The position numbers were made by a program, and so were the translations under genes. From positions 62,001 to 126,000 of the forward strand of contig JALOLR010000002.1 in assembly GCA_025455885.1 (NCBI GenBank): a DNA stretch of 64,000 bases, read 5' to 3'. Positions 45,579-51,652 of this stretch are shown here, in pieces. This DNA comes from Acidimicrobiales bacterium. GTDB lineage: Bacteria > Actinomycetota > Acidimicrobiia > Acidimicrobiales > Acidimicrobilacustridaceae. How positions within the stretch are numbered: the stretch's first letter is position 1; each line of letters opens with the position of its first letter. The notes below the pieces were generated by a model. It saw only the letters and a program-made list of their open reading frames with translations, was not told where the DNA came from and searched no databases.

Positions 45579-46121
45579 TCACCCCGGACCGGGCCGTCCG
45601 CCCCGCCGAGGCGCCTCCGCGGCGCGGGCCCTCACGAGGAAGCGCTCGACGGCCTCGGCCTGCTCGGCCCTCCAACGGGCCACCAGGTCGTCGCCGCCCC
45701 GCGAGACGGCCTCGATCACCGGGGCCAGCCGCTCACGCTGACGCTCGAGCAGGTCGGCGTTGCCGAGGCCGCGCCGGCGACGGAGCTCGAGCTTCAACAA
45801 CAGCTCCGTGCGCACGTCGCGGAGGTGAGCGACCGGCTCCTCGAGCCAGCGGGCGTCGCTCCGGCGGCCGGCGGCGGTCGGCGCCAGGAGCGTGCGGGTC
45901 CGGCCGCCGCCGGGCGCCGTGCCTCGGCGCCGGAGGTGGCCGTCGTCGACCGACCGGTCGATCGCCCGGTAGACGAGCGGTCGACTGAGCGACCAGATCC
46001 GTCCGACCTCCCCGCCGGGGGCGAGCGCCGTGCCGACCGCCCAACCGTGCTCGATCCCCTCGACCACCAAGGCCAGGCACACGGGCTGGGCGAGGTCGGC
46101 GTCCGTGGGCTTGCGGGGCAC
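45579..46121 (-). CDS. PadR-family transcriptional regulator
   Basis: 180 residues: winged helix (LAQPVCLALVVEGIEHGWAV, then SRPLVYRAIDRSVDDGHLRR with the basic wing GGGRTRTLLAPTAAG) followed by a C-terminal helical dimerisation region rich in Arg/Leu (LLLKLELRRRRGLG). The GTG at 46119-46121 is chosen because a promoter with TACGAT lies six bases upstream; an in-frame GTG at 46140-46142 would overlap that promoter. It is divergent from modABC, so control of molybdate uptake is a likely role; an effect on the CoA ligase gene behind it is also possible. Confidence 0.82.
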   Translation of the reverse strand: MPRKPTDADLAQPVCLALVVEGIEHGWAVGTALAPGGEVGRIWSLSRPLVYRAIDRSVDDGHLRRRGTAPGGGRTRTLLAPTAAGRRSDARWLEEPVAHLRDVRTELLLKLELRRRRGLGNADLLERQRERLAPVIEAVSRGGDDLVARWRAEQAEAVERFLVRARAAEAPRRGGRPGPG

Positions 46122-46127
46122 CGGGCG

Positions 46128-46156
46128 ATCGTACCGGGCCACGGCGCAGTAGTCAG
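46128..46156 (-). promoter_or_regulatory. Promoter of the PadR gene
   Basis: On the minus strand: -35 CTGACT (46151-46156), 17-base spacer, -10 TACGAT (46128-46133), then six bases to the GTG at 46121. Each hexamer matches the consensus at four of six positions. A leaderless transcript is predicted. Confidence 0.5.
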
Positions 46157-46167
46157 AAGTTGACTAC
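46149..46167. promoter_or_regulatory. Inverted repeat, likely operator shared by padR and modA promoters
   Basis: Perfect seven-base arms GTAGTCA/TGACTAC with a five-base spacer. It covers the -35 of the PadR gene on one side and overlaps the -10 of modA on the other. A dimeric regulator bound here would block both promoters; PadR, encoded next door, is the obvious candidate but the site is not the common PadR ATGT/ACAT type. Confidence 0.55.
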
Positions 46168-46170
46168 AGT
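46165..46170 (+). promoter_or_regulatory. Putative leaderless -10 (TACAGT) of modA
   Basis: TACAGT followed by six bases and the modA ATG at 46177. No good -35 at the standard distance. Its first three bases are inside the shared inverted repeat. Confidence 0.4.
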
Positions 46171-46176
46171 CGGATC

Positions 46177-46971
46177 ATGCGGACCCGAGGCCTCCCCGTG
46201 CTGTTCGTCGCCCTGGCCGCGCTCCTGGTGGCCGTCGGATGCGGGGGCTCGGACACGACGGCGACCGCCCCGGCGACCGGACCGACGGCGCTCGCGGGCG
46301 GCGAGGTCACGGTGCTCGCCGCCGCGTCGCTGACCGACGTGATCGGGACCGTCGCCGCCGGGTTCGAGGCCGCCAACGCCGGTGTGACGGTGGCGGCCTC
46401 GTTCGCGGCGTCCTCCGCCCTGACCGCCCAGATCCGCGAGGGCGCCCCGGCCGACGTGTTCGCGTCGGCGGACGAGGCGACGATGGACGCGCTGGCGGGC
46501 GAGGGCCTCCTGTCCGGGTCGCCCGTCGTGTTCGCCCGCAACCGGATCGCCATCGCCGTCGCCCCCGGCAACCCGCTCGGGATCACCGGGCTGGCCGACC
46601 TCGCCGCACCCGGCGTCGTGTACGTCGCCGCCGGGCCCGCCGTCCCCATCACGAGGTACGCCGACGAGGCGCTGGCCGACGCCGAGGTCACCGTCCGGCC
46701 CGTGAGCCAGGAGGCCGACGTGCGGGCGGTGCTCGCCAAGGTGGCCGCCGGCGAGGCCGACGCCGGGATCGTGTACAGCACCGACGTGGCCGCGTCCGAG
46801 GGAGCCGTGACCGGCGTCGAGCTCACCGAGGTGGGCATCGTGGCGACCTACCCCGCCGCCGCGCTGCGCGAGGCGTCGCGACCCGACCTGGCCGATGCTT
46901 TCGTGGCGTTCCTCGCCGGCCCCGTGGGTCAGCGGGCCCTCGCGGACGCCGGCTTCGCCCCTCCCGGGTGA
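46177..46971 (+). CDS. modA: Molybdate ABC transporter substrate-binding lipoprotein ModA
   Basis: 264-residue lipoprotein (lipobox LLVAVGC, Cys 21) with the ModA signature: VLAAASLTDVIGTVAAGFEA near the N-terminus, FAASSALTAQIREGAPADVF, and ADAGIVYSTDV. It captures molybdate (or tungstate) outside the cell and delivers it to ModB. No Shine-Dalgarno; the ATG appears to begin the mRNA. First of three coupled genes: its stop overlaps modB (GTGA). Confidence 0.92.
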   Translation: MRTRGLPVLFVALAALLVAVGCGGSDTTATAPATGPTALAGGEVTVLAAASLTDVIGTVAAGFEAANAGVTVAASFAASSALTAQIREGAPADVFASADEATMDALAGEGLLSGSPVVFARNRIAIAVAPGNPLGITGLADLAAPGVVYVAAGPAVPITRYADEALADAEVTVRPVSQEADVRAVLAKVAAGEADAGIVYSTDVAASEGAVTGVELTEVGIVATYPAAALREASRPDLADAFVAFLAGPVGQRALADAGFAPPG

Positions 46972-47789
46972 CCCGCCGCCCCCGCGTCCGGCGGGTCCCG
47001 CTCCCGGTGGCGGTGCTGGCCACGGTGGCGTCGGTGTTCTTCGCGCTGCCCATCGTGGGCCTCGTCGCTCGCGCCCCGTGGGGCGACGCCTGGGCGATCC
47101 TCACGGCCCCCGACACCCTCACCGCTCTGCGCCTCTCGCTCTGGACCTCGGGCTGGTCCACCGTCCTGTCGCTCGTCTTCGGCGTCCCCCTGGCGTGGGT
47201 GCTGGCCCGCAGCACCGTCCCCGGCCGCGCCGGCCTGCGAGCGCTCTCCACGCTCTCGATGGTGCTCCCGCCGGTGGTGGCCGGCGTCGCCCTCTTCGCC
47301 GCCCTCGGTCGACGCGGCATCGTCGGCCAGCACCTCTACGACTGGTTCGGCATCCGGCTTCCGTTCAGCACCGCCGGGGTGGTGCTGGCCCAGACGTTCG
47401 TGGCCATGCCGTTCCTCGTCATCACGGTGGACGCCGCGCTCCGCCAGGCCGGCACCGAGGCCGAGGAGGCCGCCCGGACGCTCGGCGGCGGTCCCTGGTA
47501 CACCTTCCGCCGAGTGACCCTGCCGACCATCCGCCCGGCGCTCGTGGCCGGGGCGGTGCTGGCATGGGCCCGGGCGCTCGGCGAGTTCGGCGCCACGATC
47601 ACCTTCGCCGGCAGCTTCCCGGGCACCACCCAGACGCTCCCGCTGGCCGTGTACCAGGCGCTGGAGACCGACCCCGGCCAGGCCGTCCTCGTGGCGCTGC
47701 TGATGGTGGCCATCTCGTTCACGGTGCTGGTGTCCCTGCGCCACCGCTGGCTCGGCGGAGGGCTCGCCCCCGGCGGGACCAGAGCGTGA
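46968..47789 (+). CDS. modB: Molybdate ABC transporter permease ModB
   Basis: 273-residue permease with about six membrane helices and the ABC cytoplasmic loop EEAARTLGGGPWYTFRRVTLP (EAA motif), followed by GEFGATITFAGSFPGTTQTL, which is characteristic of ModB. The GTG start overlaps the modA stop; the stop overlaps modC. Works as a homodimer with ModC. Confidence 0.93.
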   Translation: MTRRPRVRRVPLPVAVLATVASVFFALPIVGLVARAPWGDAWAILTAPDTLTALRLSLWTSGWSTVLSLVFGVPLAWVLARSTVPGRAGLRALSTLSMVLPPVVAGVALFAALGRRGIVGQHLYDWFGIRLPFSTAGVVLAQTFVAMPFLVITVDAALRQAGTEAEEAARTLGGGPWYTFRRVTLPTIRPALVAGAVLAWARALGEFGATITFAGSFPGTTQTLPLAVYQALETDPGQAVLVALLMVAISFTVLVSLRHRWLGGGLAPGGTRA

Positions 47790-48856
47790 ACAGCGGGCTC
47801 GTCGCCGACGGCGGCCTCCGCGTCGGCACGCTCGACCTGCACGCCGCGATCGGCGTCCGCCCGGGCGAGGTCGTGGCCCTCCTCGGCCCCAACGGCGCCG
47901 GCAAGACGACGCTCCTGCGGGTGCTCGCCGGGCTCCTCCCTCTCGATCGCGGGCGCGTCACCCTCGACGACGAGGTGCTCGACGACCCGCTGATCGGCCG
48001 GTTCGTCGCGCCGGAACGCCGGCGCCTCGGCGTGGTCCTCCAGCACCTGGCGCTGTTCGAGCACCTCGACGTCCTGGAGAACGTGGCGTTCGGCCTGAGG
48101 GCCACGGGGATCCGCCGGGGCGAGGCGCGTCGCCGCGCCCGGGAGTGGCTCGACGTCGTGGGTCTCGCCGAGCGCGGCGGGGAGCGGCCCGGGGTCCTGT
48201 CGGGCGGCCAGCGCCAGCGGGTGGCGCTGGCCCGCGCCCTCGCCGCCGAACCCCGGGCGCTGCTCCTGGACGAACCCCTCGCCGCACTCGACGCCTCCAC
48301 CCGTGTCGACGTGCGCATCGACCTGCGCCGCCACCTCGACGAGACCGGACTGGCGACGCTCCTCGTCACCCACGACCCCGTCGACGCCCACGTGCTGGCC
48401 GACAGGGTGGTCGTGCTCGAGGACGGCCGGGTCGTGCAGGAGGGCGCCCTCGCCGACCTCGGCGCCCACCCGGCCACCGACTACGTGGCCGATCTCGCCG
48501 GCGTCAACCTGGTGACGGGCGTGCTCGACGGCGACGTGCTCGTCACCCCCGAGGGCGTCCTGGTGCACGGCATCCGGTCCGACACGACGCCCGTCGGCGG
48601 ACCCGGGCTGGCCGCGCTCGAACCGCGCGCCATCGCCCTCTACCGGGAGCCCCCGACCGGCAGCCCCCGCAACTGCTGGCCGACGCGCATCGCCGGGATC
48701 CAGGTCTTCCACGACCGCGCCCGGGTCCGCCTCGACGGTCCTCCCGCCACGACGGCGGAGATCACCGCGGGCGCGCTGGCCGAGCTGGCCCTGGCGCCGG
48801 GCGACGGCGTGTTCGCCGTGGCCAAGGCCACGGAGGTGCGGCTGTACCCGGGTTAG
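47786..48856 (+). CDS. modC: Molybdate ABC transporter ATP-binding protein ModC
   Basis: 356-residue ATPase: Walker A GPNGAGKTT, Q-loop QHLALFEHL, signature LSGGQRQRVALARAL, Walker B LLLDEPLAALD, H-loop THD. The C-terminal extension after about residue 235 has a TOBE/Mop-like domain (the last 50 residues, TAEITAGALAELALAPGDGV...) that can bind molybdate and regulate transport. GTG overlaps modB. The stop overlaps the convergent amidohydrolase stop. Confidence 0.93.
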   Translation: MNSGLVADGGLRVGTLDLHAAIGVRPGEVVALLGPNGAGKTTLLRVLAGLLPLDRGRVTLDDEVLDDPLIGRFVAPERRRLGVVLQHLALFEHLDVLENVAFGLRATGIRRGEARRRAREWLDVVGLAERGGERPGVLSGGQRQRVALARALAAEPRALLLDEPLAALDASTRVDVRIDLRRHLDETGLATLLVTHDPVDAHVLADRVVVLEDGRVVQEGALADLGAHPATDYVADLAGVNLVTGVLDGDVLVTPEGVLVHGIRSDTTPVGGPGLAALEPRAIALYREPPTGSPRNCWPTRIAGIQVFHDRARVRLDGPPATTAEITAGALAELALAPGDGVFAVAKATEVRLYPG

Positions 48857-50058: not shown

Positions 50059-50088
50059 AACCTACTACGCAACGGGCCGCTCCGACAA
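50059..50088 (-). promoter_or_regulatory. Leaderless promoter of the amidohydrolase gene
   Basis: Minus strand: TTGTCG (50083-50088), 18-base spacer, TAGGTT (50059-50064), then six bases to the ATG at 50050-50052. The -35 lies inside the last paaX codons. This gives the amidohydrolase its own start, separate from paaX. Confidence 0.48.
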
Positions 50089-50100
50089 GGTTGTGTAGTA
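50063..50100. promoter_or_regulatory. Inverted repeat around the amidohydrolase -35
   Basis: Arms TACTACGCAAC (50063-50073) and GTTGTGTAGTA (50090-50100) pair at 10 of 11 positions with 16 bases between. The left arm overlaps the -10 and the right arm sits just upstream of the -35. Likely an operator; PaaX is encoded across it, so autogenous or local control by PaaX is plausible but unproven. As RNA it could also fold at the paaX 3' end. Confidence 0.5.
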
Positions 50101-50928
50101 CGTCTCGGAGGCCTCGGACCAGCGCGCCTGGAGTTCGGTGAAGCGGGCCTTGGCCCTCGCGCCCGCCCAGTCGGCGGGCAGGAGGGTCGAGGGCAGCGCC
50201 GGGTCGATGCTGAGCAGGTGGCGCCACTCGTGGGCGAGACGGGTGCGCAACGCGAACGCCTCGCGGTCGTCGACCGGCTCGGCGTCGGCGAAGTCGGCGA
50301 GGAACCGTTCGTGGGCCCGAGCCGCCCCCTCGAGGTCCCAGGCACCGGCGACGACCTCGGCGGGCGTCGCCGAACCCGCGGTCGGCGCGGCGGTGAAGAA
50401 GACGGCTCCCGCCTCGAGGCCGAGCTCGCCGAGCACGACCCGGGCACCCGCCTCGGCACGAAGGTCGGCCGACACCCAGAGGCTCGGCCCGAGCGACCCG
50501 AAGCCCTCGAAGTCGAGGCCCGAGGCGAGCCGGTCGCGGCGGAGGCGGTCGGGCGGGGGGCCGGTCAGGCTCACCAACAGGAAGTGGCCGTCCCATTCGC
50601 GGTCGGGCAGGAGGGAGCGGGCGAGCCGATCGCGGGCGGACTGGAGCAGGCGCCGCCCGGCGGGCGACAGGGACCAGCGCGTGTACCGCCCGACCGATTC
50701 GCCGACCAGCCACCCGTCGGCGGCCGTCCGGTTGACCGCCTGGCGGGCCGCCCGCTCCTCGACCCCGAGGGCCTCGAGCGCACCGACGAGCGTGGACGTC
50801 CAGACGTCGACGCCCCGCGGCATGACGTACTGCCCGAGGATGCCCACGAGCAGCGACCGGGCGCTCGGCCCACCGTCGGCGCGACGGCGCGTGGGCGTCA
50901 CCACCACGTCGGAGCCGGAACCGGTCAT
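50065..50928 (-). CDS. PaaX-family transcriptional regulator
   Basis: 287 residues. An N-terminal winged-helix region (SARSLLVGILGQYVMPRG, EALGVEERAARQAVNRTAA, LVGESVGRYTRWSLSP) and a C-terminal PaaX domain (EWDGHFLLVSL, LGPSLWVSADLR). PaaX proteins repress phenylacetyl-CoA and related aromatic pathways and are released by acyl-CoA ligands. ATG at 50926-50928; upstream frame-matched codons belong to the divergent methyltransferase region. TACGAT sits eight bases upstream. Possible targets are the amidohydrolase and the acyl-CoA gene cluster to its right. Confidence 0.85.
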   Translation of the reverse strand: MTGSGSDVVVTPTRRRADGGPSARSLLVGILGQYVMPRGVDVWTSTLVGALEALGVEERAARQAVNRTAADGWLVGESVGRYTRWSLSPAGRRLLQSARDRLARSLLPDREWDGHFLLVSLTGPPPDRLRRDRLASGLDFEGFGSLGPSLWVSADLRAEAGARVVLGELGLEAGAVFFTAAPTAGSATPAEVVAGAWDLEGAARAHERFLADFADAEPVDDREAFALRTRLAHEWRHLLSIDPALPSTLLPADWAGARAKARFTELQARWSEASETYYTTLSERPVA

Positions 50929-50936
50929 GGGCGCCG

Positions 50937-50942
50937 ATCGTA
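50937..50942 (-). promoter_or_regulatory. Putative -10 (TACGAT) of the paaX-type gene
   Basis: TACGAT followed by eight bases and the ATG on the minus strand. Confidence 0.36.
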
Positions 50943-51010
50943 GGGCGCGCCGCACGCGGCGACGTCCGACCGGCGTGCCTCCCTCGGCGTCGGCGAGCGA
51001 CACTGGGAAG

Positions 51011-51652
51011 ATGGACGACGGCAGCGACGAGCGGGACCCCGACCCCGAACGGGGCCCCGGCCGGCCGGCGGCGGAGTGGGCCCGCTGGCGTGCAGAGGTG
51101 GACCTCGACGAGTACGACACCCGCTGGGAGCGCCTCGCGGCGAGCGGCGTCGATCCCCACGGAGAGGTCGACCTCGTGGTGCGCTACCGGCCCCGGCGCG
51201 TGCTCGACGCCGGGTGCGGCACCGGCCGAGTGGCCATCGAGCTCGACCGCCGGGGGATCGAGGTCACCGGCGTGGACCTCGACCCGGACCTCCTGGCCAG
51301 GGCCCGCGCACGCGCCCCCTCGCTGCGGTGGATGGAGGCCGACCTCGCCGCACTCGACGACGTCGAGCTCGGCGGCGCCTTCGACGTGGTGGTGGCAGCG
51401 GGGAACGTCATCGGCTTCGTCGACGCCGACCGCCGGACCGCCGTCGTGCACGCCTGCGCCCGACGCCTCGCGCCGGGCGGCCGCCTCGTCGCCGGCTTCC
51501 AGCTACGGCCCGACTGGCCGACGCTGCAGGCGTACGACGCGTGGTGCACCGAGGGCGGGCTCGTCCTCGAGGACCGTTGGTCGACCTGGGACCGACGACC
51601 GATCGGACCCGACCCGGACTACGCGGTGTCGGTCCACCGCAGGGACGGCTGA
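51011..51652 (+). CDS. Class I SAM-dependent methyltransferase
   Basis: 213 residues. SAM-binding motif I VLDAGCGTGRVAIELDRRG, motif II VTGVDLDPDLLARARAR, and the post-motif GAFDVVVAAGNVIGF. The N-terminal 45 residues include acidic and Trp-rich sequence (EWARWRAEVDLDEYDTRWERL) that is usual for small-molecule methyltransferases of the UbiE/COQ5-like type. The ATG follows GGGAAG. The 3' end overlaps the convergent enoyl-CoA hydratase gene by 34 bases. Substrate unknown. Confidence 0.85.
   Translation: MDDGSDERDPDPERGPGRPAAEWARWRAEVDLDEYDTRWERLAASGVDPHGEVDLVVRYRPRRVLDAGCGTGRVAIELDRRGIEVTGVDLDPDLLARARARAPSLRWMEADLAALDDVELGGAFDVVVAAGNVIGFVDADRRTAVVHACARRLAPGGRLVAGFQLRPDWPTLQAYDAWCTEGGLVLEDRWSTWDRRPIGPDPDYAVSVHRRDG

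Follow-up and report, generated by a model that had tools for sequence, protein, structure and literature searches.

Organization of the padR-modABC locus

The window, by which we mean the whole 64-kb stretch of DNA analyzed here, carries a molybdate uptake operon on the forward strand. The first gene, modA (46177..46971, +), encodes the molybdate-binding protein (TIGR01256, 114 bits for a cut-off of 62.5) and is followed by the permease gene modB (46968..47789, +; TIGR02141, 216.7 bits for a cut-off of 182.6) and by modC (47786..48856, +), which encodes an ATPase with a C-terminal TOBE domain (PF00005 and PF03459). ModC was a weaker family match, with a TIGR02142 score under the cut-off, and its TOBE domain was the only one detected in a scan of the genome. 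The source genome also encodes molybdenum hydroxylases and, for molybdenum cofactor synthesis, a MoaA C-terminal domain was found. Further along the window, an open reading frame at 50065-51120 (-) had the look of a PaaX-type regulator when judged by eye.

On the other side of the intergenic region, padR (45579..46121, -) encodes a protein of 180 amino acids. Since this protein alone gave no match to any Pfam or NCBIfam model, its family was assigned through its orthologues and its fold. PF03551 was matched by 18/22 family members at E ≤ 0.1, with a best value of 9e-10, and one orthologue (L024) reached 37.5 bits, above the 27-bit cut-off. The AlphaFold2 model (pLDDT 93.9) displayed a winged helix and long C-terminal helices, the closest PDB structures were PadR-family chains, and a profile search matched AphA, PadR and Rv1176c. 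On orthologue sequences and predicted fold, the protein is a PadR-family regulator. It belongs to a sharply bounded subfamily, matched at E < 1e-42 in 55 of 397 genomes of the order; outside it, two partial matches were followed by the remaining PadR matches of these genomes at 1e-18 or weaker. The members with a name belong to Ilumatobacteraceae, Microthrixaceae and Acidimicrobiaceae, to an assembly labelled acIV and to a few actinomycetes, which would place the window in Acidimicrobiia.

A palindrome overlaps both predicted promoters

Direct reading of the region between padR and modA revealed the inverted repeat GTAGTCA-GAAGT-TGACTAC (46149..46167, no strand), with two perfect 7-base arms and a 5-base spacer, which we consider a candidate operator on this reading and on its conservation. 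The modA -10 element TACAGT (46165..46170, +), likewise assigned by reading and conservation, has its TAC in common with the right arm and is separated by six bases (CGGATC) from the ATG at 46177-46179 (+); no -35 was recognizable when this promoter was read. For padR, the -10 element TACGAT (46128..46133, -), assigned by reading and by the geometry in other loci, stands six bases (CGCCCG) from a GTG at 46121-46119 (-). This GTG is most likely the true start; the mechanical ORF caller preferred the GTG at 46142. The padR -35 CTGACT (46151..46156, -) was assigned by consensus only (4/6 bases), with a 17-base spacer to the -10, and lies inside the palindrome. The promoter layout of the original prediction, with both -10 elements six bases before their start codons, a padR -35 at 17-base spacing and a repeat over the padR -35 and the modA -10, was confirmed in each of these points, the repeat covering the -35 and sharing three bases with the -10.

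A generic sigma-70 scan reported no promoter in this intergenic region because the hexamers are weak, and a generic terminator scan gave nothing useful at the locus. The two strands of the window, whose G+C content is 73%, together contain the pattern TANNNT just 34 times. With up to 3 mismatches in the arms, the palindrome was the sole match in the 64-kb window, and with up to 2 mismatches the 19-mer was the sole site in the whole 3.29-Mb genome. By itself, a palindrome of this size in 64 kb is unremarkable.

The site is conserved and tracks the regulator

Loss of the repeat from orthologous mod/padR loci had been named beforehand as grounds for rejecting the prediction, and conservation was found instead. 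The core TAGTC-N7-GACTA, with at most one arm mismatch, preceded modA, or modB where modB was the first mod gene, in 69 of the 75 assessable distinct PadR loci. It occupied this position whether padR was divergent, upstream or downstream, and in modABC-padR operons it stood in front of modA, not of padR. In 0.62 Mb of PadR loci, the 7-base gap gave 78 matches, and each other tested gap 2-11. Across a bacterial order, the arms are conserved and the spacing is fixed while the spacer sequence is free; one subclade has TAGTCTC-N3-GAGACTA, with outer arms and spacing unchanged.

The exact site TAGTCA-N5-TGACTA was present in 24/397 genomes, 21 of which encode a subfamily PadR (Fisher p = 3e-17, a value inflated by shared ancestry). 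The reversed pattern, used as a control, showed no association with PadR (p = 0.3). In the three genomes with the exact site and no PadR (G067, G146 and G291), it lies away from modABC, and we read these as probable chance occurrences. When padR was on another contig (G314 and G136), the site stayed at modA, and in G345, where padR and modA are 1.5 kb apart, an identical 17-mer precedes each gene. The site was found in 0/20 modABC loci of genomes without a subfamily PadR. One such genome (G020) has a degenerate sequence with 2 mismatches beside modA, possibly a relic of the site. TAGTCATGCGACAACTT, beside modA in a PadR-less genome (L157:2689-2705), is perhaps a decayed operator.

The leaderless-like geometry was conserved as well. 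The right arm ends in a TA that opens a TANNNT in 49/69 conserved sites, and an in-frame start codon follows this hexamer after 5-8 bases in 43 of these 49; on the padR side, the distance from a TANNNT to an in-frame start is exactly 6 bases in 17/23 loci. In L015-type loci, the right arm provides a TTGACT placed as a -35, and a TACCGT lies six bases before the ATG. Both designs, with the site on the -10 or as the -35, would fit repression by promoter occlusion.

Linkage of padR to the mod genes

Mod genes adjoin padR in 21/21 strong relative loci that extend to the neighboring gene, and in a larger set of loci they lie beside padR in most, in the orders divergent, modABC-padR and padR-modABC. 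For a minority of the subfamily, from Pseudonocardia, Dactylosporangium and Acrocarpospora, no mod gene was present within 4 kb of padR. Among five such members from these genera (L093, L099, L103, L104 and L112), three show a mismatch-free TAGTC-N7-GACTA upstream of padR; the neighbors of these mod-less actinomycete padR genes included no clear molybdenum gene. Another locus, L056, has a padR gene extended by a Mop domain, with neither modA nor modB within 4 kb.

Some orthologues carry a Mop domain

Nine distinct PadR orthologues (L037, L042, L043, L046, L047, L049, L053, L056 and L065) possess a C-terminal, Mop-like extension, about 80-97 residues long, in which LSARNQ occurs. Mop is the domain with which ModE and ModG bind molybdate, and it accepts molybdate or tungstate. 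Scanned alone, 4/5 extensions exceeded the TIGR00638 (Mop) cut-off, with L043 under it (46.4 for 55 bits); the L013 protein also exceeded this cut-off. In one PadR-Mop protein, the C-terminus matched ModG and ModE of known structure and the N-terminus PadR. We found no report of this architecture in the open-access literature. Palindromes tend to be weaker at the loci of Mop-fused members, with 3 mismatches in L049, L053 and L065.

In the tree, the window PadR clusters with 8/9 Mop-fused proteins (support 86/81), and the Mop label requires three changes. The domain was therefore likely lost, or gained repeatedly, within the subfamily. The window PadR itself has no Mop domain in a Pfam scan, like most of the subfamily, and a genome scan found no other Mop-bearing regulator, so that molybdate sensing in the source genome rests on association. 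With nine orthologues carrying the domain, and most of them grouping near the window PadR, the signal is likely to be molybdate.

A different Mop regulator in relatives without PadR

No protein exceeded the ModE cut-off (TIGR00637) in the source genome and 118 relatives, the weak matches being far below it, and the window PadR did not match this model of the ModE N-terminal DNA-binding domain. A small HTH_17-Mop protein was encoded in 33/119 genomes, one of which is the sole congener of the source genome in the set, and its gene was upstream of modABC in 11/20 inspected mod loci without PadR. A 130-residue protein of this kind, HTH_17/MerR-like with a Mop domain, was seen upstream of modABC in PadR-less genomes at L159-L162, L167-L169 and L173-L176. 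The HTH_17-Mop protein and a subfamily PadR were found together in 0/23 cases (p = 2e-4 overall and 2e-6 in modB genomes, uncorrected for relatedness). Judging from these distributions, the regulator over modABC looks to have changed by non-orthologous replacement. The original prediction set PadR against the usual ModE, and on this point it has to be amended: PadR-less relatives often have the HTH_17-Mop protein, not ModE, beside modABC.

Discussion

We propose, with a probability of roughly 0.8, that the adjacent PadR uses the palindrome as its operator and that this protein is a repressor and the molybdate regulator of the lineage. A PadR dimer on TAGTCA-N5-TGACTA would cover the modA -10 and the padR -35, and one binding event would therefore silence both predicted leaderless transcripts. 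With sufficient molybdenum, uptake would drop and PadR would also limit its own synthesis; with scarce molybdenum, PadR would release the DNA and modABC would be transcribed. The window PadR, without Mop, may sense the signal itself, through its helical C-terminal domain, or via a partner. Control of the molybdate uptake genes by PadR through this predicted operator, as originally put forward, is supported by the conservation in 69/75 loci and by a site that follows PadR across genomes. The same prediction had described a reciprocal switch, but it is more likely that PadR represses the two promoters together and thereby regulates its own gene.

A PadR operator over modABC could also respond to something else, such as tungstate, sulfate, the status of the molybdenum cofactor or some molybdoenzyme metabolite. 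The window PadR is Mop-less, no TOBE protein except ModC was detected in its genome, and, by their PDB titles, some PadR structures contain a bound organic ligand, for instance p-coumarate or vanillate. However, the nine orthologues with a domain that binds molybdate or tungstate, eight of them nearest to the window PadR in the tree, and a regulated operon that is modABC throughout make another signal rather unlikely. PadR could instead activate modABC from the palindrome, as the modA promoter has no good -35, like many activated promoters. Yet the site overlaps the -10 in 49/69 loci and lies at the probable -35 elsewhere, and a protein sitting on a -10 normally keeps the polymerase out, so we regard activation as improbable. 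Binding of PadR to the palindrome is itself a prediction, and another, unlinked regulator might occupy it with PadR as a mere neighbor; this is very improbable, given that the site tracks the presence of PadR, is absent before modABC of PadR-less relatives and stays with modA when padR is relocated. Perfect 7+7-base palindromes are not rare in 64 kb, but a chance repeat can practically be dismissed with conserved arms, a free spacer and a fixed spacing, and an RNA hairpin equally so, because the repeat would lie upstream of, and thus outside, both predicted leaderless transcripts.

The proposed repressor resembles ModE, the molybdate-responsive repressor of modABC in Escherichia coli, in being a one-component repressor at the modA promoter, and PadR-Mop orthologues also share Mop as the sensor. 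They differ in the DNA-binding domain, which is an unrelated winged helix in PadR, in the operator, and in the Mop domain, single or absent in the PadR subfamily. With PadR, VanR, Rv1176c and AphA, the subfamily shares the winged helix, the C-terminal helical domain and, by prediction, a palindrome placed both at the promoter of the regulator gene and at that of a neighbor, whereas its predicted target is an oxyanion importer and some of its members carry Mop. The HTH_17/MerR-type protein of relatives has the operon, the lineage and the Mop sensor in common with PadR(-Mop); in contrast, its DNA-binding domain is not homologous, it comes without the TAGTC-N7-GACTA site, and it never shared a genome with PadR among the 119. 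None of the regulatory TOBE architectures reported for gut microbes in PMC11980592 combines PadR with TOBE, and we found no PadR linked to molybdate, molybdenum or TOBE in the open-access literature.

More broadly, it seems likely from these comparisons that such PadR proteins, some fused to Mop and others sensing without it, form a class of molybdate-responsive regulators not previously described in the open-access literature. In Acidimicrobiia this class would take the place of other Mop regulators at modABC, with an operator within the leaderless -10. For a large group of actinobacteria, mostly uncultured, these results put a name to the probable regulator of molybdenum, to its operator and to the operon it would control, and the operator sequence would make the regulon findable from sequence alone. 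They also suggest that one operon has passed between unrelated DNA-binding proteins with a common sensor domain, and raise the question of how a regulator may sense molybdate after the loss, or before the gain, of its Mop domain.
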